A stretch of 24,413 nucleotides of DNA from a virus: the IMG/VR virus record IMGVR_UViG_3300041964_000197, positions 1-24,413 of that record. One strand, 5' to 3'. Below are positions 5,793 through 24,413 of the stretch, one piece after another. Within the stretch, counting starts at the first letter, position 1. Each line of letters begins with the position of its first letter. The notes under the pieces are model-generated. The model worked only from the letters and a program-made list of their open reading frames with translations, had not been told where the DNA came from and searched no databases. Both the position numbers and the translations under genes were made by a program.

Positions 5793-8327
5793 TTAAGCGA
5801 GGCGCAGGCGCGACTGACGCCGGGCCCGCGTGAGCGACTGGATGCGCCGCACGTCGGCGGCGTCGTTGAAGGTTATGGGGCCGTTGAAGTTCACCGCGCC
5901 CCCGTCACCGCCCAGGATGTTCTGGCTGTCGCGGTTGGAGTAGATCCGTCCGGGGCCGTCGGGCACCCAGAGTTCGGGCCCGCGCTCGCCTATGATCGAG
6001 GGGCGACCGAGCGGCGGGCGTCCGCCCTCTGCGAAACCGAAGATTTTACCGACGCCCTTGACGAGTCCGCCGAGGCCCTTTGTTAGGGCCCCTCCGGTCA
6101 GCATGTCAGCGACCGGGAAGATACCGGCGGTAGCGGCACCGGCGGCGGCACCGAATGCCTGCCCGACGCCCCAGGAAGCGATAGAACCCGCGAAGCCACC
6201 ACCACCGCCCATGCCGGGGATGCCGGGGATTTGCATCCCGCCCGCGCCGGGCATGAACTGCGACAGAAGGGGGGCAAGGTTCCCTGCGTTCGCCGCACCC
6301 AGATCCGCCGAGTTGGTGACGGTCACCGGCGTGGGGGTGCGCTTCGCGTCGTCGAGTGCGCGGCTCATGGCACCGTAGGTCGATTTCGCGTCGCCCGAAG
6401 CGCCGTCACCGGTCTCTCCGTCCTTCTTCTTTGTGCCGAGTATGTCGCCGAGCAGGTCTTCCGCTCCCTTTGCCACCGCCGCCGCCGCCTTTTCCGCGAG
6501 AATGCGGATGATCGCCTGCCGGAAACCGTCGATGAGGGCCGCGAAGAACCCCTTGCCCGTGGTGAGCACGGTGGCGAAGGCGTCGCGGAACACGTCCTTG
6601 ATCGTCGCGCCCACCTGTTTGATGGCTTCGAGTTTCTTCGCCTTTTCGTTCAGGCGGTCGAACTCTCCGGCCAGCTTGCGCACCTCGGCGGCGACCTCCG
6701 GGCTCATCTTCTCCAGGCTCGTGTGGAACTGCTCCCACGCGATTCGGGCCTCGGTCGTCCCGAACTTCACCTCGCCGACCGCGATCTTCATCTCCATCAG
6801 CCGGTCGCGCAGGCCCTCCAGCCCACGCGCCTGAGCCACATTGCCGAGGGCGATGAACTCCTCGCGGAGCCGCCTCAGCTTTTCTGGGTCGATACCCCCT
6901 TCAAAATCGGTGCCCTCGCGCTGGAGTAGGAACTTGCCCCATTCGCTCCCGGTATACAGGAGCGCTTGGTACTCGTTCGCCAGTTCCCGGATCTTCTTCT
7001 TGTGCTGGTCTGCGGCTTGCATGTCGAAGAGCTGCTTGTTAAGTCCGGCGAGCGCAACGACGATCATACGGGTCAGGGGCGGCAGGGTTCGAGCGGAAGT
7101 TTGAACCGCTCCAGCGCCAGGATCGCGGGGTTCGTGGAATCTTCGACGCCTTCGACATGCAGGCGGTACTTTTCGAGTTCGACGCCCGCATCGCGGTGGG
7201 CGTCCGTGAGACCGTCCATCTTGGACTTCCACTCGTCGGCAATCTGCTTGGTCTGCTCCTCGATCGTGGAGAGCCGCTTCTCCTCGTGCTGGAGCGCGAC
7301 GATGCCCTTGATTCGATCCTTTTCCGCTTGGGTCAAGCTGCCATAGGATTTTCTTGAACACCTCGACGGCGACCTGATTTTCGACCGTTGCGTCGCGGAG
7401 AAGAAGCACCTTCTGCCGAACCGTGTCATAGAGACCGGCGAGCGCCGAGGTCACCCGGCTCTTCTCCGCCGCAGCGCCTTCCGCCTTTTTGATGGCGTCG
7501 GCGAGCCGCAGGTACTCGGAGGCAAGTTTCCCCGCCGAACCCGATTTCACATCGATCTTGTCGTACTTCTGGCCGAGTTCGCTGAGGTTGGCGGCTTGGA
7601 GCTGGCTCTTGTTCGCCGCAGTGAGTTGCTTGAGCTTCGTCCGCTGGGCGAGGACATCCGCGACCAGCGACTTGAACTGCGACTCCCGCGCTTTTCGGGC
7701 TGCTTCCGCCGCGTCCTTCGCCTGCTGTGCCGCGGCTTCGCGGGCCGCACGCGCGGCTTCTGCCGCCGCTTCTTTCTTTGCCTGCGCGACATCGAAGGCG
7801 TTCTGTTTTGCCGCCGCGATTTCGGTTCGCTTGGTGTCGGTCTTGTCGAGCTTGGCGATCGTCCCCTGGTTGACTTTGAGCCGGTTCTGCTGCCGGGCCA
7901 GTTCCGCCTTCGCCTGGTCGTACTCAAGGAGGCGCGAGGAAAGCTGGATGACCTGGGCCTTCGGATTGACCGGGATGCCCTTGGTCGTACCGTCCGCGAT
8001 CCGCTTACGAAGTTCGTCGCGCCGAGCGATCAGGGTGGGCGCTTCCTGCTCCCATTCCGCTATGATTGCCTTCTGCTTGTCGATCTCGGCCTTCGCGTCG
8101 TCGACCGCCTTCTGCGCGTTGTTCCGGGCGACGGTTTCGAGGCCGTTCGGGAGGCCCTTCGCTGCCCGTTTCACGTCCTGCTGGGTGATTTCGGCGTTCT
8201 GGTAGCGGGCGATTTCGGCCTGAGATTTGGCGATGTCTGTCTTGAGCTTGAACCACATTAGGGCCGCCCCGGCAATCGCTGCGACGACGATACCAATCGA
8301 CACGGCGAACGGCGCTATGCTCGCCAC
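5793..8327 (-). CDS. tape measure protein, C-terminal segment
   Basis: This open frame of 844 codons is the C-terminal two thirds of the tape measure protein. It opens with a hydrophobic stretch (IAPFAVSIGIVVAAIAGA) typical of tape measures, followed by a very long Ala/Lys/Glu/Gln-rich coiled coil (to ~320), more helices, and a Gly-rich tail with FAEGGRPPLGRPSIIGERG...ELWVPDGPG, a signature ending of siphovirus tape measures. Codons ~328-418 (about 7350 to 7086) are in the wrong frame: they read as an Arg-rich nonsense peptide, while the neighbouring frame at 7073-7429 reads the expected helical sequence (SLTQAEKDRIKG ... ILALERFKLPLEP). The GTG at 8327 is not a real start; the frame continues from the upstream segment. 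Confidence 0.8.
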   Translation of the reverse strand: MASIAPFAVSIGIVVAAIAGAALMWFKLKTDIAKSQAEIARYQNAEITQQDVKRAAKGLPNGLETVARNNAQKAVDDAKAEIDKQKAIIAEWEQEAPTLIARRDELRKRIADGTTKGIPVNPKAQVIQLSSRLLEYDQAKAELARQQNRLKVNQGTIAKLDKTDTKRTEIAAAKQNAFDVAQAKKEAAAEAARAAREAAAQQAKDAAEAARKARESQFKSLVADVLAQRTKLKQLTAANKSQLQAANLSELGQKYDKIDVKSGSAGKLASEYLRLADAIKKAEGAAAEKSRVTSALAGLYDTVRQKVLLLRDATVENQVAVEVFKKILWQLDPSGKGSNQGHRRAPARGEAALHDRGADQADCRRVEVQDGRSHGRPPRCGRRTRKVPPACRRRRRFHEPRDPGAGAVQTSARTLPPLTRMIVVALAGLNKQLFDMQAADQHKKKIRELANEYQALLYTGSEWGKFLLQREGTDFEGGIDPEKLRRLREEFIALGNVAQARGLEGLRDRLMEMKIAVGEVKFGTTEARIAWEQFHTSLEKMSPEVAAEVRKLAGEFDRLNEKAKKLEAIKQVGATIKDVFRDAFATVLTTGKGFFAALIDGFRQAIIRILAEKAAAAVAKGAEDLLGDILGTKKKDGETGDGASGDAKSTYGAMSRALDDAKRTPTPVTVTNSADLGAANAGNLAPLLSQFMPGAGGMQIPGIPGMGGGGGFAGSIASWGVGQAFGAAAGAATAGIFPVADMLTGGALTKGLGGLVKGVGKIFGFAEGGRPPLGRPSIIGERGPELWVPDGPGRIYSNRDSQNILGGDGGAVNFNGPITFNDAADVRRIQSLTRARRQSRLRLA

Positions 8328-16838: not shown

Positions 16839-17272
16839 GTTGTCGGAGTCAGCGCGAGCGCGGCAGCCGAAGCGCCGGTGACGCGGTTGGCGGACGGGAC
16901 GCTCGTGTACTGCGCCAGGATGTTGCTTTCAATCGAGGCGTTCATGGCGACGGCGGCGCGTTTGGCGTAAGCGTCCAGGGGGTCGATGTCAGACCGGCGG
17001 CGGTCAACGTCCGAGGCTTTGAAGGCGAAATACTCGGTCGTGCTGACGGTGAAATCTTCGATCGCAGGGGCCAGATCCTGGTAGGAGATCGAGCCAGAGT
17101 ACGGGCCCATCGTGACCGAGCCCATCGTACGGATCTTGACCGTGCTATTTTCGGTCAGGTCGCCTTCGTACTCGCGGTTCACGAGCGGCAACATAACGTT
17201 TACTTTGTCGAGGTTCTCGACGACTTTAGCGGAGAATTTTGTCGCGTCAAGGGCGACGAGGTTGTTGGCCAT
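16820..17272 (-). CDS. major capsid protein, N-terminal segment (frameshifted)
   Basis: These 150 codons start the major capsid protein: MANNLVALDATKFSAKVVENL, then PLVNREYEGDLTENSTVKIRTMG, YQDLAPAIEDFTVSTTEYFAFKA and a helix ending SIESNILAQYTSV. This order (N-arm, 'xGDxVxIRxxG' strand, 'FxVDxxxYFAFKxxD') is characteristic of HK97-fold capsid proteins that follow a scaffold gene. After SAAALALTP the frame runs into TTCTATS-stop at 16820. The whole protein, joined across one missing base, would be 279 residues. The start has no strong Shine-Dalgarno sequence, unusual for the most abundant protein; a palindrome at 17337-17355 lies upstream. Confidence 0.82.
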   Translation of the reverse strand: MANNLVALDATKFSAKVVENLDKVNVMLPLVNREYEGDLTENSTVKIRTMGSVTMGPYSGSISYQDLAPAIEDFTVSTTEYFAFKASDVDRRRSDIDPLDAYAKRAAVAMNASIESNILAQYTSVPSANRVTGASAAALALTPTTCTATS

Positions 17273-17336
17273 GGGGTGTGGTCTCGGCCTGCAACGGCGA
17301 AGATGCCGTCAGGCGGGGGAAGCGGAAACGAAGGCA

Positions 17337-17355
17337 GCGGAAAGGAGCTTTCCGC
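17337..17355. repeat. palindrome GCGGAAAG-GAG-CTTTCCGC ahead of the capsid gene
   Basis: An 8-bp stem with a 3-nt loop, the same 19-nt palindrome as at 14497-14515 but with the loop complemented. It sits in the 126-nt gap between scaffold and capsid genes, 65 nt before the capsid ATG. Confidence 0.6.
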
Positions 17356-17376
17356 GTTTCCGTGGGGGCGTTACGT

Positions 17377-17392
17377 TCACGCGCGAGCGTGA
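17377..17392. terminator. small hairpin after the scaffold gene
   Basis: TCACGC-GCGA-GCGTGA, 6 bp with a 4-nt GNRA-type loop, seven bases past the scaffold stop on the minus strand. Probably an RNA stability element or weak terminator. Confidence 0.4.
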
Positions 17393-17398
17393 CCGTAG

Positions 17399-17980
17399 TT
17401 AAATCCGTCCGGGGATGCGCCCAGAGGGGGCGGTTGCGGAAGCGGGTGCGGGGTTGGTGCTGCGGGTATCGGGAACCGTGGCTGGGGCCGAAGCGACCAT
17501 CTTGGGGCGGGCTTTGATGAACTCGGCCACGAGGGTATCGACGTTGGTGGGCTCGCCGTCCTCGATCGTGATCCCATCCTTGATCGCAAGAAAAGCGAGG
17601 TCGGGATCGATGACTCCGGCGGTCTTTAGGGCGGACAGGGCGTCACGCTTCGCCAGTTTCGCTTCGAGCGCGGTGCGGGCATCAAGAGCCGCCTGGGCTG
17701 TCTGCTGCGCCTTTTCAAGCGCCGAGAGGTTGGCCTCTTTTCGCGCTTCCTCTTCTCGCTCGAACGCGGACAGTTTCGTCCGGTACGAGGCCGATTCGGC
17801 ACGGAGGTCTTTGACCATCTTTGCAAGTTCCGCTACGGTGAGGGCTTCGAGCCTCTTCGGCGCTGGATCGGTCGGTGCGGGTGTTTCGGGTGTAGGGTTA
17901 GGCTCCTGGCCTGGGTGCGAAATGGCTTCGCCATTTGCGCGGGTAGGATCGGTCGGCTCCTGGCCTTCGTTCTCCGGCAT
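17399..17980 (-). CDS. capsid scaffold protein
   Basis: This 193-residue protein shows the scaffold layout: acidic, Pro/Thr/Glu-rich disordered N-terminus (residues 1-45), a long charged helix predicted as coiled coil (LTVAELAKMVKDLRAESAS ... LEKAQQTAQAALDARTAL, about 50-120), a short globular segment (ALKTAGVIDPDLAFLAIKDG), and a Pro/Ala-rich tail ending in a basic RIPGRI. The 'GVxDPDxAxxxLxD' element is common to GP20/scaffold-like proteins. ATG 17980 is preferred: GGAG lies 8 nt upstream (plus 17989-17992); an extension to 18091 lacks a ribosome-binding site. It precedes the capsid gene as expected. A palindromic repeat copy (17920-17936) is embedded in its coding sequence. Confidence 0.82.
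   Translation of the reverse strand: MPENEGQEPTDPTRANGEAISHPGQEPNPTPETPAPTDPAPKRLEALTVAELAKMVKDLRAESASYRTKLSAFEREEEARKEANLSALEKAQQTAQAALDARTALEAKLAKRDALSALKTAGVIDPDLAFLAIKDGITIEDGEPTNVDTLVAEFIKARPKMVASAPATVPDTRSTNPAPASATAPSGRIPGRI
17920..17936. repeat. palindromic repeat AAATGGC-N3-GCCATTT, copy 3 (inside scaffold gene)
   Basis: Identical in core to copy 1 at 11656-11672. Here it is translated as part of the disordered scaffold N-terminus (ANGEAISH on the minus strand), a place tolerant of insertions. Confidence 0.6.
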
Positions 17981-18239
17981 GGGGTGATCTCCAAAACGAG
18001 GATGTCGGCGGGGAGTGCCCCCGCCAAGGTGTTCTTGAAGTTGAAGTGCTTCTTGGGGATTAGAACGCAAAGAATACAGTGCCCACGGCATGGTGAGGGT
18101 GCCGATCTACCTTGGAGCTATAGGGCTTTTTTCCCGGATTCACTCTCAACCTATGTTGCCTATAGAGGATACGAAAGGAAAGAAGAGAGGGAAGGAAACA
18201 TATAGGAAGCATGGCGCTCCCAGTCCTGCCCCCCTGCTA
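17981..18239. other. 259-nt gap between minor head protein and scaffold
   Basis: No convincing gene is visible. It contains a 7-bp hairpin (18007-18025, GGCGGGG/CCCCGCC), one copy of the recurring 11-mer (18038-18048), and a 45-nt stretch (18165-18209) that is almost purine-only on the plus strand, hence a C/U-rich, G-poor tract in the late mRNA. Base composition is clearly more AT-rich than surrounding genes. It may hold a promoter or processing site for the scaffold-capsid genes. Confidence 0.5.
18038..18048 (-). promoter_or_regulatory. recurring late-region motif, copy 2 (before scaffold)
   Basis: Plus strand AAGTTGAAGTG within GTTCTTGAAGTTGAAGTGC; on the minus (coding) strand GCACTTCAACTT, 58 nt before the scaffold ATG. 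It shares the extended match GTTCT-(TG)-AAGTTGAAGTGC with the copy at 11750-11760. Confidence 0.4.
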
Positions 18240-19268
18240 TCAGGGAAGAGGTTCGCGCCGTGATGCTTGCTGGAGGGCGTATTTATCGGAGCCTTTGACG
18301 TAGGAGTCGCCCCATGTCGGAGAGTGCGTCGTGCGAACGTAGTCGTCCAGCGTCACCCGCCCGTTGCGGTAGAGGTCGGTGCCTTCTTTCCCCAGCACCC
18401 GGATCTGATCCTCTTCGTCAAGTCCGGCGAACCATTCTGACGCGGGCGTCCGTTTGCGTGCGCCACCGGCGATCACGGGAATGGGGGTACACCGGCAACG
18501 AACATGGCTTGCAAAGGGCGTGTCCTTCGAGAAGACCTTGCCGTCGTTTGCGAGGCAGGCGGCACATGACCGGAGCGATTTCGTCGCCATCCACTCCCAC
18601 CCCTCGACCGCCTCGGACTCCTGATACTTGATCAGGCTCGCGTTCCGATAGACCCGGAGCGTCTCCGTCCGAGCGATGGTCAGCGAGCGCGTCAGGCTCT
18701 CCCCTGTCACGGCCCGGAAGTTCGTGGCGATCACGCGCGGCCCCTGTCCGGTGGCGACGCCGATGGTGAGTACGTCCTTCGCTTTCTGGATGGCCGCCTG
18801 GGGCATCTCGTCTTTGATCTTGTCGAGGAGCCCGGCCAGAGGAGAGGAGGACTTGAAGGAGGAAACGATCGTCTCGACGGCACGGGTGTTCAGTCGGTCA
18901 AAGGAGCCCGTGATTCCCGCTTCTTCGATTCCGGCGCGGATGAGTGTCTCGGCATCCCGTGCCCCCGACAACTGAGCGTCCAGGACGGCGGACTGGGTGA
19001 CGGCCTCCGTCAGGCGGGCCAGGCGCTTGATCTCCGCCTCGGTCTGGGCCATCAGCGTGATGTACCGTTCCTCACGCTGGAGCCACGCCAAGGAAACTTC
19101 TTCGCCGTTCATGCGCCGGATCTCGATGAGTTCCGTGAGCGCTTTCAGCCGGGCCTGTAGATCCGCGTCGACCTTCTGGTAGGCGGCGATCAGGGTACGA
19201 GCGGTGTCGGCATCGGCGGCGAGAAGGCGCTTCCGGTGCTCCTGGGCGAGGTCATAGATCGTGGGCAT
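18240..19268 (-). CDS. minor head protein, Mu gpF / SPP1 gp7 family
   Basis: This 342-residue protein is of the family that attaches to the portal inside the procapsid and influences DNA exit. It begins with a long helical region (MPTIYDLAQEHRKRL..., about 1-100), then the conserved ITRSLTIARTE-like element (SLTRSLTIARTETLRVYRNAS), and a Cys/His cluster CAACLANDGKVF ... HVRCRCTPI near residues 234-262, the gpF signature 'C-x2-C-x5-G-x...H-x-x-C-R-C'. I prefer ATG 19268; a longer reading from TTG 19307 lacks a ribosome-binding site. In most relatives this gene directly follows the portal; here a plus-strand moron is inserted between them. Confidence 0.88.
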   Translation of the reverse strand: MPTIYDLAQEHRKRLLAADADTARTLIAAYQKVDADLQARLKALTELIEIRRMNGEEVSLAWLQREERYITLMAQTEAEIKRLARLTEAVTQSAVLDAQLSGARDAETLIRAGIEEAGITGSFDRLNTRAVETIVSSFKSSSPLAGLLDKIKDEMPQAAIQKAKDVLTIGVATGQGPRVIATNFRAVTGESLTRSLTIARTETLRVYRNASLIKYQESEAVEGWEWMATKSLRSCAACLANDGKVFSKDTPFASHVRCRCTPIPVIAGGARKRTPASEWFAGLDEEDQIRVLGKEGTDLYRNGRVTLDDYVRTTHSPTWGDSYVKGSDKYALQQASRREPLP

Positions 19269-19383
19269 GGAGCGGGGTCGCTTGTGGGAAGGGAAGCCTA
19301 CGGCCAATCGAAGTAGACGTGAGTGAATAGCAGCGGATTCTAATCGAAAATCGTTTTATATGCCACTGCGCTTAGAAAGTCAG

Positions 19384-19389
19384 GTATAA
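19384..19389 (+). promoter_or_regulatory. -10 element (TATAAT) of the moron promoter
   Basis: A perfect TATAAT preceded by TCAGG lies 38 nt before the moron ATG. No TTGACA-like -35 is seen at 17 bp. The context GCCAC...TCAGGTATAAT resembles that at 23781-23791. Confidence 0.7.
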
Positions 19390-19426
19390 TGTGACATACG
19401 TCGAACCACGCGCGAAGGAGAACTTT

Positions 19427-19693
19427 ATGTCTGATTTAATGCAAGTCACCAAACATCCCTTAACTGTTCGGGAGCTAAAAGAGCTTCTAAGCACCTATGA
19501 TGAAAACAAACCCGTCACGGTCAAGCTGTCTTCCCCCCATGTTAAGACCGGTCAGGAGTATTATTTGCCCAAAGAGAGCATCGTAGAGGGTGCGAAAGAG
19601 GTCGTCTTACACATGGAAGGGTTAAACTGGTTCGCTGATGCGGATGAGGAAGGGAACAGAAAGTTGATACGCGATTGGGCGAATCGCCCTTAA
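19427..19693 (+). CDS. moron gene: small conserved phage-type hypothetical protein
   Basis: This 88-residue protein is read against the late genes. The ATG at 19427 has GAAGGAGAA just upstream (19414-19422) and lies behind a TATAAT promoter (19384-19389), so an earlier GTG at 19391 is rejected because it falls at the transcription start. The N-terminal segment PLTVRELKELLSTYDENKPVTVKL matches the common 'xTVGELKELLxxxPDDxPVxV' pattern of small phage and plasmid proteins with no defined function. It is visibly more AT-rich than its neighbours. Its stop is one base from the portal stop, with no terminator between. Transferred 'more DNA' (moron) is the best reading; the product may be made in lysogeny. 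Confidence 0.8.
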   Translation: MSDLMQVTKHPLTVRELKELLSTYDENKPVTVKLSSPHVKTGQEYYLPKESIVEGAKEVVLHMEGLNWFADADEEGNRKLIRDWANRP

Positions 19694-19694
19694 T

Positions 19695-21017
19695 TTACCC
19701 ACGGTCGAGTGCGGACAGAATGGCGGTTCCGGCGTCGGTGCCCTCCCCCGCCATCTGCTCCTTCTCGGCCTCCCAGTCATAACCGATCGCTTTGGCAATG
19801 GTCTCTTTGCTTGCCACGCCCATCTGGAGATCCGCCTGTGCGGTTTGGCGTTGTTCGAGGACGTTGACCGGCGTCGTGTTCGGGAAAACGCACTCCACGG
19901 TGCAGCCCGCGAATCCGGCAAGTTCCAGGATGCGCTCGCACATATCTTCGATCATCTCGCCGAGGTGCGAGCGCTTCTCAGCCGTTTTTGACTCCAGCGG
20001 CTTGTAAAGGATCTGCAGCGCGGCCCCAGAAATAGGGCCCACGTTTTCGATCTTACCCGACGCGATCTCCGGTGTCCGAGAAAGAGAGTGGATCTCGGCC
20101 CGGAGCGACTTGTATAGATCGAGTAGCCCCTGAGCGCCCTCGGCCCCCATCTGAAGTTGGGACACCTCGACGCCTTCCGGGAGGGACACCGCGCCATCGG
20201 TCAGCCAGTCCATGCTCCGGCTGTTCAGGCCGTTGAGGATCGTTTTCGGGCTGGCGTGGTTGCGGAGCAGGCGGGACAAAAGGGACAGTACGACGTTGAT
20301 GCTCTGGTTCTGGGCGACGCAGGCATCGGAGGCGTCGGCGAGGCCGAGGTAGCCCAGCGGGTTGGTCAGGTTCTGCGCGTCGAACACCGGGCTCCACTCG
20401 TAGGGCCACTCTGTCTGCTCGACGACCTCCCATTTGCCGGAACCGGAGCGCTGGATTTCCTCCGTGATGAGCCAGCCCGCCCCAATCCGTTCCGTCACCT
20501 CCCGGTGCTTGTCGGTGCGGTGGGTCGCCGGGTTGTCGGACTCCCAGGCGACGATATAACTGACGGCGCGTTCGCAGTCGCGCGGGTCTGTCGCCACGTT
20601 CACCATAGCACTGTTTAGGGCCTGAAACCGGACGGGGACGCCGTTCTCAACGATCAGTTTCAGGAAGACATGCCCGATCACCGCCCCATTCAAAGCGGCC
20701 TTCCGCAGGCTCGCCTGGTGCTTGGAGCGAGAAAGGAACCCCGCCAGGAACTCCTGGGCCGCTTCTTGTCCGTCGCCGAGGACGTCAATCTTCGGCCCGT
20801 CCCCCAGCAGGTGCGCGGTCGAGGCATTTACGATCTCCGAGATGATCGGCAACACCACGTTGTCCTGCGCGTGGGGGTCTGTCTTCGTGGCGGTGAGCAC
20901 CGGCGGGAACTGCGCCTGGTACGCAGCCCACGGGTCGAGGGCGCGGGTGTGCTTCGCGGGGATCAGTGTAGCGGTTCCTTGCCGGAAGAAGCTCTTTACG
21001 GAATCGAGGATGTTCAT
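19695..21017 (-). CDS. portal protein (SPP1 gp6-like family)
   Basis: This 440-residue protein forms the dodecameric portal vertex through which DNA is packaged. The start is the ATG at 21017, six bases after the terL stop; a much longer open reading frame upstream is only the shadow of terL. Visible features are an N-terminal domain with NVVLPIISEIVNASTAHLLGD, WPYEWSPVFDAQNLTNPLG in the middle, and the family signature SRTPEIASGKIENVGPISGAA then LQILYKPLESKTAEKR leading to MIEDMCERILELAG, which matches the 'S-G-x-A-L-x...PL..K' helix of SPP1-type portals. The C-terminus (SKETIAKAIGYDWEAEKEQM) is typical too. It follows terminase directly, as usual. Confidence 0.88.
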   Translation of the reverse strand: MNILDSVKSFFRQGTATLIPAKHTRALDPWAAYQAQFPPVLTATKTDPHAQDNVVLPIISEIVNASTAHLLGDGPKIDVLGDGQEAAQEFLAGFLSRSKHQASLRKAALNGAVIGHVFLKLIVENGVPVRFQALNSAMVNVATDPRDCERAVSYIVAWESDNPATHRTDKHREVTERIGAGWLITEEIQRSGSGKWEVVEQTEWPYEWSPVFDAQNLTNPLGYLGLADASDACVAQNQSINVVLSLLSRLLRNHASPKTILNGLNSRSMDWLTDGAVSLPEGVEVSQLQMGAEGAQGLLDLYKSLRAEIHSLSRTPEIASGKIENVGPISGAALQILYKPLESKTAEKRSHLGEMIEDMCERILELAGFAGCTVECVFPNTTPVNVLEQRQTAQADLQMGVASKETIAKAIGYDWEAEKEQMAGEGTDAGTAILSALDRG

Positions 21018-21022
21018 GGGGG

Positions 21023-22243
21023 TTACCAGAAGGAAGGAAGGGACTGAGGCGCTTGCTGACGGGTTGCCGCCTTGACCGCCAGGGCCAGCGCGATCACGGT
21101 GTCGTCGTGCATCCCGGATGGGGCCGAGTAGGACGTCAGGCCGTTCGCGCTCTTGCGGGACTCGAAGGCAAGGAGTTCGCCCTTTTGCACCGGGTCGGAA
21201 AGGATTCGGATCGCCCGCTGTTCGAACGCGAGCGCGAGGTTGTCGATGAGAAGCGCCTTCGTAGCCTGGGTGGTCGTGAAGGAGAGCACGGGGAGTCCGA
21301 GACGCTGGAGGGCCTCGATGTTCGCCTGCCCAAACGAGTTCGCCTCGCAGATCATCACGGAGGGGAGGAACCGGTCGTGGAGGGCCTTGATCCGGTGTTG
21401 CTGCTGCACGAACTCCACGCCTGTATAGCGGTCGAGGAACACCTGCTCCCCGGTGGTCACGTCGATCACGGACATCACGGTGAAGTCGCCAGATCGCCCG
21501 AAGTCCAACCCGCAAACGTATTCGTGGCCTGACGCCGCAGACTCCTGGGCGCGGGCCGTGGCCGCCTCGATCACAGCGCGGAAGACCGCGCCGCCCCCCC
21601 GGATGAACTCGGCCTCGTACTCCTGGGTGAAAGTGTCCCGATCCGTGGTCTGTTTCTTCCGCGCGACCCAGGCAGCGACGCCGGGGATGGTCGGGTTGCT
21701 CACGGTCGGCGCGTGGTGGTAGGCCCAGTCCTCGTTCACTGGATCTTGCGCCATCAGTGCCAGGACGTGGAAGTAGTTGTAGCCGCGGGGCGTGGAGAGG
21801 AACCACGCCCCGCCGTTCAGATCGAGCAGCGTGGGCTCTATGCAGGTCTGCCACAGGCGGGACAGGTCGACGGCGATCGCGGCTTCGTCGACCACGACCA
21901 GAGCATACTTCCGGCCCAGCGCGGGATCGGGGCCGTCGAGCGTCCACATCTCGATCTCGCCGCCGGTGAGTAACTCGATTCGCTTCTCCTGCTCGTTCAC
22001 GGCCCGCGTCACCGGTTTCAGGAGTTGCTTCAGCCGCCTCCAGATCGGGAGCAGGTACTTGTAGTTCGGGGCGAACCAGGCAGCGGGGAGACCTTGTAGC
22101 GCGGCGGCGATGATGCGGTCAGTGCCGAGCACGGACTTCCCCCAGCGCCTCCCGCAGCACACGACGTTGTATTTCCGGGAGGCGCGGATGGCATCGACCT
22201 GACCGGCATGGGGGCGCGGCAGTTTCAGGGAAATGGGCGTCAT
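21023..22243 (-). CDS. terL: terminase large subunit (ATPase and nuclease)
   Basis: This 406-residue DNA-packaging motor subunit is complete. The ATPase domain has Walker A GRRWGKS (residues 31-37), Walker B YALVVVDEAA with Asp119/Glu120, and the coupling motif STPRG (150-154). The RNase H-like nuclease domain shows CGLDFGRSGD with Asp247, MICEANSFG with Glu300, and GMHDDTVIALALA with Asp380/Asp381, the expected metal-binding carboxylates. It cuts concatemeric DNA and pumps it through the portal. Its ATG (22243) overlaps the stop of the small subunit as ATGA. The rather short length suits a compact siphovirus terminase. All catalytic residues are present, so the gene looks functional. Confidence 0.95.
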   Translation of the reverse strand: MTPISLKLPRPHAGQVDAIRASRKYNVVCCGRRWGKSVLGTDRIIAAALQGLPAAWFAPNYKYLLPIWRRLKQLLKPVTRAVNEQEKRIELLTGGEIEMWTLDGPDPALGRKYALVVVDEAAIAVDLSRLWQTCIEPTLLDLNGGAWFLSTPRGYNYFHVLALMAQDPVNEDWAYHHAPTVSNPTIPGVAAWVARKKQTTDRDTFTQEYEAEFIRGGGAVFRAVIEAATARAQESAASGHEYVCGLDFGRSGDFTVMSVIDVTTGEQVFLDRYTGVEFVQQQHRIKALHDRFLPSVMICEANSFGQANIEALQRLGLPVLSFTTTQATKALLIDNLALAFEQRAIRILSDPVQKGELLAFESRKSANGLTSYSAPSGMHDDTVIALALAVKAATRQQAPQSLPSFW

Positions 22244-22539: not shown

Positions 22540-22767
22540 CTTGATTGTTCTTGAAAAGGAAAGAGCCCGCCCGCCCACTACGAAGTTGAAGTGGGAAACC
22601 GCGGGGGAGCGCGGCTGGGCAGGCGTACCGGAAGGTGCGGAAGAAGACGCGCCTCGGTCTCTGAAGGTAAAGTGCGGACGCCCAGCACATCCGCAAAGTA
22701 GGTGGCGGTTCCCCCACTCCAGAAGCGTTCCTGTAGCAATCGCAACGTTTGCTTTATAAGGGAGCGC
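22540..22767. other. divergent intergenic region between terS and sigma factor genes
   Basis: These 228 nt separate two diverging genes and should hold both promoters. It includes copy 1 of the recurring motif (22582-22592), a TTTATAA box (22753-22759) close before the sigma gene, whose reverse complement TTATAAA could serve terS, and GC-rich inverted stretches. No consensus promoter is clear. Confidence 0.5.
22582..22592 (-). promoter_or_regulatory. recurring late-region motif, copy 1 (before terS)
   Basis: AAGTTGAAGTG, reading CACTTCAACTT toward terS, 43 nt before its ATG, in the divergent region shared with the sigma factor gene. Confidence 0.4.
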
Positions 22768-23331
22768 ATGCACAAAGAGCGAAAACAATTCGAGGCGGCG
22801 GTCGAGGCGGAGCGAGGCCCTATGCTCCGGCAGTTACGGGGCCAGGTGGACGTGGAGACGGCGCAGGATCTGGTTCAGGACGCCATGCTGATCGCCGTTT
22901 CCACCGACGCCTGGCGGGAGATCATCTGCGTTAAAAGCTGGATGTGGGGCGTGGTAAAGAAGGTCGCCTGGGGCCACCGGAGGAAGCGGAAAGAGACCGT
23001 TTCCTTGGACGAGTTGATCGGCAAGATCGGCGAGGATGCTTCCGTTACCCGGCTGGCCCTGGCCTGGCCCGACGACACGCTTGAGCGCATGGAAGAAGAC
23101 GAGGAGTTCGCCGTGCGTGTCGGAGAGGTTCTCGAACTGGCGAAGGCGGCGGATCTGTCGCGGAAGGAATACTACGTCGTTGTCGCCCGGCTTCGGGGCC
23201 AGGAATACAAAGAGATCGCCCAGGTGATGGCGATCTCCGAGAACGCGGTGCGGACGTACCTGTCGCTGGCCCTGGCGAAGATCCGAGGCGTCAAAGCCGA
23301 CGCTTCCTTCACCGGAAGTGTACTAACCTAA
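22768..23331 (+). CDS. ECF-like sigma-70 family RNA polymerase sigma factor
   Basis: This 187-residue protein carries a sigma region 2 core (about 14-76: TAQDLVQDAMLIA, then KSWMWGVVKKVAWGHRRKRKE) and a region 4 helix-turn-helix (about 128-174: LSRKEYYVVVARLRGQEYKEI, then VMAISENAVRTYLSLALAKIRG), joined by an acidic linker. That two-domain layout, without regions 1.1 or 3, defines ECF sigma factors; phage relatives often act as late-gene activators near terS. ATG 22768 is preceded by AAGGGAG and is preferred over 22702. The gene diverges from terS across a 228-nt gap. Its last 9 bp overlap the converging unknown gene. Confidence 0.85.
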   Translation: MHKERKQFEAAVEAERGPMLRQLRGQVDVETAQDLVQDAMLIAVSTDAWREIICVKSWMWGVVKKVAWGHRRKRKETVSLDELIGKIGEDASVTRLALAWPDDTLERMEEDEEFAVRVGEVLELAKAADLSRKEYYVVVARLRGQEYKEIAQVMAISENAVRTYLSLALAKIRGVKADASFTGSVLT

Positions 23332-23837: not shown

Positions 23838-24413
23838 CTACGGGTTGCCGAGCGGAACACGGACGAGGTACTGCTGCCCCCCGCGAAGGACGCGCAGGAC
23901 TATGATGTCGCCGGGGCGCTTGCCGACGTTGTGGCGGTTTAGGTCTTCGGCGCTGCTGATCCACTGCCCATCGACCTGCGAAATGTAATCGCCCTTTCGT
24001 ATCCCGGCTAAATACGCGGTCGTGCCGGGAACGATGTTGCCGACGAACACGCCGTAGCCCGGCTGCAGGCCGTAGCTTGCGCCGACTCCAGGGGGGAGCG
24101 GCGCGAGGCTCACGCCGATCTTCGGGTTACCCAAGTCGGGCCGATATGCCGGTGCGGCGGGCGCGGGGACATACTGCGTCGCCGGGGCTGTCATGGCGGG
24201 GGCGCTATAGGTGCTACTCGGAGCGGTAGATCGGCTCCGCTCCGCATCCCACTTAGCGAAATCAACGAACATGATCCCCACCAGGATTGCCACCAGTGCC
24301 ATCCCGGTAAGGAACAGCCCCAACCCGCACCCGAACAACTTCTGCGCCTGTTCGCGCCCCCATACCGCCGCGACAAACAGAACCGCCAGCAGAAAGATTA
24401 CGATTACCCCCAT
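23838..24413 (-). CDS. membrane-anchored PDZ-domain protein
   Basis: This encodes 191 residues; the ATG is the last triplet of the window, so a longer upstream start cannot be excluded. Two hydrophobic helices (about residues 2-18 and 29-49: IVIFLLAVLFVAAVW and GLGLFLTGMALVAILVGIMF) are followed by a Ser/Pro/Ala-rich linker (~60-95) and a PDZ domain (~107-188) with GYGVFVGNIVPGTTAYLAGIRKGDYISQVDG, a carboxylate-binding-loop 'GYGV' and the 'AGIxKGDxIxxVDG' helix as in HtrA-type PDZ domains. No protease domain accompanies it. It may bind unfolded or C-terminal peptides at the membrane. A host gene or a phage accessory gene are both possible. Confidence 0.8.
   Translation of the reverse strand: MGVIVIFLLAVLFVAAVWGREQAQKLFGCGLGLFLTGMALVAILVGIMFVDFAKWDAERSRSTAPSSTYSAPAMTAPATQYVPAPAAPAYRPDLGNPKIGVSLAPLPPGVGASYGLQPGYGVFVGNIVPGTTAYLAGIRKGDYISQVDGQWISSAEDLNRHNVGKRPGDIIVLRVLRGGQQYLVRVPLGNP

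Follow-up and report, generated by a model that had tools for sequence, protein, structure and literature searches.

A small reverse-oriented gene, probably acquired as cargo, between the portal and MuF genes of an SPP1-like phage head module

A small open reading frame, ORF88, lies in reverse orientation between the portal and MuF genes of an SPP1-like head module in the virus record IMGVR_UViG_3300041964_000197, the 24,413 bases of which make up the whole stretch of DNA analysed here (the window). Intact flanking genes, a perfect Shine-Dalgarno sequence and a bias in codon phase argue for a real inserted gene, and in our judgement ORF88 is very probably a gene. The explanation that we favour for it, with moderate confidence, is that of a horizontally acquired small cargo gene, arranged in a layout like that of noncontiguous operons.

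Late genes of the window run leftward on the minus strand in the order terminase large subunit, portal, MuF, scaffold-like gene, and head-tail and tail genes. The profile of the terminase large subunit (21023-22243, minus strand) also matches a gene of PP395641.1 that is annotated as terminase large subunit. The SPP1 gp6-like portal protein (19695-21017, minus strand; PF05133, E 3e-15) is untruncated, with the C-terminal motif of the family present at its end and its C-terminus aligning with the ends of relatives. The MuF-like minor head protein (18240-19268, minus strand; PF04233, E 2e-13) begins with an ATG devoid of a Shine-Dalgarno sequence and is likewise untruncated, its start resembling that of relatives, while the scaffold-like gene lies within 17399-18091 on the minus strand. 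ORF88 is thus flanked by intact conserved phage genes, as a moron in the loose sense of the term would be, and it probably is one.

No PF00589 integrase was found in the 24,413 bases of the window, possibly itself a fragment, and in this respect nothing in it points to a temperate lifestyle. An integrase of this family is present in five of 17 records of relatives, all of which are possibly fragments. A sigma-70/ECF-like gene (22765-23331, plus strand; TIGR02937 E 1.6e-10, slightly below the cut-off; PHROG 1740 sigma factor) adjoins the presumed terminase small-subunit region and is divergent from it. A promoter motif common to this gene and ORF88 was considered and rejected, the longest shared word being 7 nt. 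At the right edge of the window (23838-24413, minus strand), a phage or host gene encodes an N-terminal hydrophobic stretch and a DegP/HtrA-like PDZ domain.

ORF88 occupies 19427-19693 on the plus strand, from an ATG at 19427 to a TAA at 19691-19693, and encodes 88 aa. A single base (19694) separates its stop codon from that of the portal gene (19695-19697). Coordinates and orientation therefore agree with the preliminary description, in which an 88-residue gene was set against the late genes between portal and MuF and ended a single nucleotide away from the stop of portal. The same description had the gene AT-richer than its neighbours, and this was confirmed by base composition. The GC content of ORF88 is 0.472 and its GC3 0.551-0.557, compared to a GC content of 0.63-0.64 and GC3 values of 0.793 and 0.814 in the portal and MuF neighbours. 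The lowest-GC 300-bp stretches of the whole window are all located at the ORF88 segment. A two-state GC fit delimited an AT-rich inserted segment at 19306-19697, without regard to strand (0.454 GC inside and 0.636 outside), with a log-likelihood gain of 21.4 and a right edge that coincides with the portal stop codon. When the rest of the window was scanned in 2-kb pieces, the best gain was 9.1, at 18027-18204; no GC step elsewhere in the window is as strong as that of the ORF88 segment. The block at 18027-18204, second to this segment in AT-richness (0.461 GC), lies beyond MuF in a gap that is for the most part non-coding. Direct repeats flanking the ORF88 segment, as expected after a transposition, were sought and rejected; only short imperfect repeats were found, away from the two ends of the segment.

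The organization of the portal-MuF junction was compared among relatives obtained by a terminase scan (best 80 of 207 kept) and by a portal scan with a ten-sequence alignment as a query (best 80 of 238 kept). Including the window, three GenBank phages and 13 bacterial or archaeal genome loci, 175 sequences were profile-searched for portal and MuF. A portal was detected in 98 of them. Of these, 24 had no detected downstream MuF and were set aside, and two loci, L164 and L175, were dropped because their contigs are those of L020 and L034, which left the window plus 71 relatives; other near-identical loci stay unmerged. Among the best matches kept, the nearest portals are about 25-36% identical to that of the window. 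The gap, counted from the portal stop up to where the matched MuF domain begins, is no longer than 60 nt in 39 of the 71 relatives, 61-150 nt in eight and above 150 nt in 24. The two genes had been described as normally adjacent, which holds for the 39 relatives with the shortest gaps but not for the 24 that carry extra DNA at this place. In close-packed relatives the MuF start is often positioned on or before the portal stop, which suggests translational coupling of the two genes. A Shine-Dalgarno sequence is missing at 36 of the 72 MuF starts, by the same rule as was used for the MuF of the window. In the window, portal and MuF are 426 nt apart, and of all gaps this one departs most in GC content from its own contig (-0.145; the next, L064, -0.114).

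Since varied extra DNA occupies this place in 24 of the 71 relatives, the portal-MuF junction is, to judge from these arrangements, a recurrent cargo site. No description of it as such was found in a thin search of the literature, although it may still be in print. Among the ORFs listed, the five longest per gap at most, a codirectional ORF of at least 60 aa is present in 22 of the 24 gaps above 150 nt; under the same limit, the gap of L145 has a codirectional ORF of 47 aa and that of L160 none of at least 35 aa. Ten long-gap ORFs were searched against Pfam. The insert of L106 was identified as a RusA resolvase, and that of L128 is alike by eye. Inserts of L107 and L112 are calcineurin-like phosphoesterases, resembled, again by eye, by those of L119 and L124. 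A Zn-ribbon protein, with a Pfam match below the cut-off, is found in L167, and L170 is alike. The other six of the ten inserts had no Pfam match. By eye, a small family of hypothetical proteins of about 95 aa recurs at the junction in L157 (1763-2053), L168 (1782-2069) and L081 (2411-2692).

Reverse orientation appears in this comparison as the distinguishing feature of the insert in the window. In L101, L131 and L132 a reverse ORF is longer than any codirectional one, which is common for overlapping shadow frames. Among the ORFs listed, the window has the only gap whose sole sizeable ORF is reverse, with L101 being ambiguous. In L101, a possible reverse ORF at the junction (8083-7682, minus strand), with the first 51 codons protein-like, overlaps the end of a gene in the late direction, and no relative of it was found beyond its own contig. 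In L003 (MW202482.1), GenBank annotates a hypothetical gene in reverse orientation immediately upstream of MuF (7541-7843, minus strand). Because the MuF profile match in L003 starts at 7556 on the opposite strand, the annotated gene probably overlies the MuF N-terminus and is spurious.

No homologue of ORF88 was detected in the databases and loci searched. There were no families in Pfam and PHROGs at E up to 10, no matches in PDB, and no match confirmed for exact peptides in IMG/VR and GTDB genome contigs. A match to NCBIfam cas5_csm4 (E 0.015, 14.6 bits compared to a cut-off of 55) was regarded as noise, as was the best match in the six genomes behind the Chloroflexi/Anaerolineae loci (E 0.149, in a frame of 440 aa). 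GenBank phages and plasmids gave one chance match each, with E 2 and 5, to unrelated genes. A search against 400 genomes from the phylum to which G001 belongs returned no matches at E 0.01, an empty answer that is uninformative by the tool's own warning. The 34,694 ORFs of the 175 sequences mentioned above also contain no homologue, except for the ORF of the window itself. This result is in accord with the expectation that the gene would be absent from the same place in relatives, the relatives being distant ones.

The lack of homologues would also fit an ORF that arose by chance, either in a spacer that is AT-rich and non-coding or in what is left of an earlier, decayed insertion. Dinucleotide shuffling of the segment produced an ATG ORF of at least 88 aa in 74 of 3000 trials (2.5%), and in 175 of 3000 when GTG and TTG starts were included, while the stretch at 18027-18204 beyond MuF offers another example of AT-rich, largely non-coding DNA. 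Composition of the encoded amino acids is non-discriminating in this respect, its score being equalled by 19% of null sequences. This reading is nevertheless unlikely, considering that the ATG is preceded at 6 nt by a perfect Shine-Dalgarno sequence, that the ORF takes up the available space until a single base remains before the portal stop, and that its codon pattern (GC1 0.545, GC2 0.33) has a GC1-GC2 phase bias with p = 0.002. The remaining five frames of ORF88 contain 4-7 stops. The putative protein is acidic and hydrophilic (pI about 5.6, GRAVY -0.67). In a poor AlphaFold2 model built from the single sequence, with a mean pLDDT of 50, a strand-helix-strand start is only a hint.

Signals for expression of ORF88 were also examined. 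The Shine-Dalgarno sequence AAGGAG (19415-19420, plus strand) is located 6 nt 5' of the ATG; the word occurs 18 times in the window. An exact -10-like box TATAAT (19385-19390, plus strand) is its sole exact copy on either strand of the 24,413 bases, and a chance copy is not improbable in a segment so AT-rich. Hexamers upstream match a -35 box in 0-2 of six positions at spacings of 16-18, reaching 4 of 6 only at a spacing of 19, no TG extension accompanies TATAAT, and the promoter scan does not report the site. Both signals named in the preliminary description, TATAAT and a strong Shine-Dalgarno sequence, were therefore read in the sequence, while the own promoter claimed from them is backed by the exact -10 box and the good Shine-Dalgarno sequence but lacks a -35 box and a TG extension. 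At the end of ORF88, a GC hairpin GGGCGAATCGCCC followed by TTAATTT (19677-19689, plus strand) overlaps the end of the gene and represents a weak terminator candidate. Its energy is -8.2 kcal/mol with a z of -1.45, not clearly above chance, and a different fold is preferred when a longer stretch around it is considered. Because of this candidate, the claim that no terminator is present was too strong and is only partly supported.

On the minus strand, a weak promoter-like site GTGGCA-18-TAGAAT (19337-19366) is directed at MuF. It raises the question of whether the segment acts on this strand, providing MuF and the capsid genes downstream with a promoter or spacer, with ORF88 as a by-product. 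Having lost its closeness to the portal gene and lacking a Shine-Dalgarno sequence, MuF may need new signals. The site matches only 9 of 12 positions, however, and is of a kind that arises by chance (0.8 expected per 5 kb in shuffles, against three found in 17000-22000). In addition, an ORF of 88 codons with its Shine-Dalgarno sequence and phase bias would be left unexplained, and we consider this reading rather improbable.

The convergent stops, 1 nt apart with only a weak hairpin between them, are compatible with transcription from the plus strand running into the portal gene. Antisense control of portal is accordingly possible in terms of layout. As a principal function of the segment, with ORF88 secondary and the plus-strand transcript repressing portal in a lysogen or that of an incoming related phage, it would have a precedent in STnc6030 of phage BTP1, described in PMC7067206 as an antisense RNA against structural genes that blocks superinfection. 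Features that oppose it are the partial U-tract following the hairpin at the end of ORF88, the missing -35 at TATAAT, and a good ORF with a Shine-Dalgarno sequence, while STnc6030 is given there as having no ORF above 60 aa; such a role is quite improbable. Highly improbable is a bifunctional plus-strand transcript, which would code for ORF88 and at the same time block portal synthesis by antisense read-through, so that the supply of portal would decide between virion assembly and a state that is quiet or excludes superinfection.

The favoured reading, that of a cargo gene, can be compared with several known systems. In its original sense, following the definition in the paper on the SPP1 genome, a moron is a complete transcriptional unit; in SPP1, morons 3-5 precede portal gene 6 and morons 8-10 follow gene 7 (PMC6316719). 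ORF88 resembles phage morons in being small (<100 aa) and added between conserved late genes. It differs from those of the original sense in a candidate promoter without -35 and a doubtful terminator, and is at most a candidate moron in the strict sense. Genes 6 and 7 of SPP1 are not split as their counterparts are in the window (PMC6316719). Noncontiguous operons, whose two transcripts are mutually exclusive, are exemplified by menE-menC-MW1733 of S. aureus and ith/tha of phage 80alpha (PMC7154746, PMC11087260). As in these, ORF88 is nested within an operon in the opposite direction and has its own start signals, a likeness seen here in sequence and orientation alone. In 80alpha the nested gene is located in the cI operon, whereas ORF88 is found among head genes. 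A possible transcript antisense to virion genes is shared with STnc6030 of BTP1, which is antisense inside genes, while ORF88 stands between them and is a good ORF (PMC7067206). STMMW_20121 of ST64B, likened by its description, is an accessory-type gene with its own promoter, antisense to prophage lytic genes; its transcription was observed, whereas ORF88 is known from its nucleotides only (PMC7067206).

If ORF88 is cargo, the gene would have entered the portal-MuF junction in reverse orientation, in a manner that kept both flanking genes whole and parted reading frames which abut or overlap in most relatives. Its own leader, comprised of the Shine-Dalgarno sequence and the -10-like box, would allow synthesis of the ORF88 protein independently of the late transcript, most likely soon after entry or at times when the late genes are not expressed. 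Late transcription crossing ORF88 from the other strand would then oppose its expression, and possibly the opposition would be reciprocal. A host-directed or superinfection-related role is usual for such cargo genes, and by analogy we would guess at a role of this kind for ORF88.

For the layout of ORF88 there are published precedents in noncontiguous operons (PMC7154746, PMC11087260). To phage genes nested against a structural operon, the window adds an insertion that is sharply bounded and reverse-oriented. More generally, the portal-MuF junction of this SPP1-like group is, by the present comparison, a site where unrelated cargo has landed repeatedly, and therefore a practical place to seek new accessory genes.
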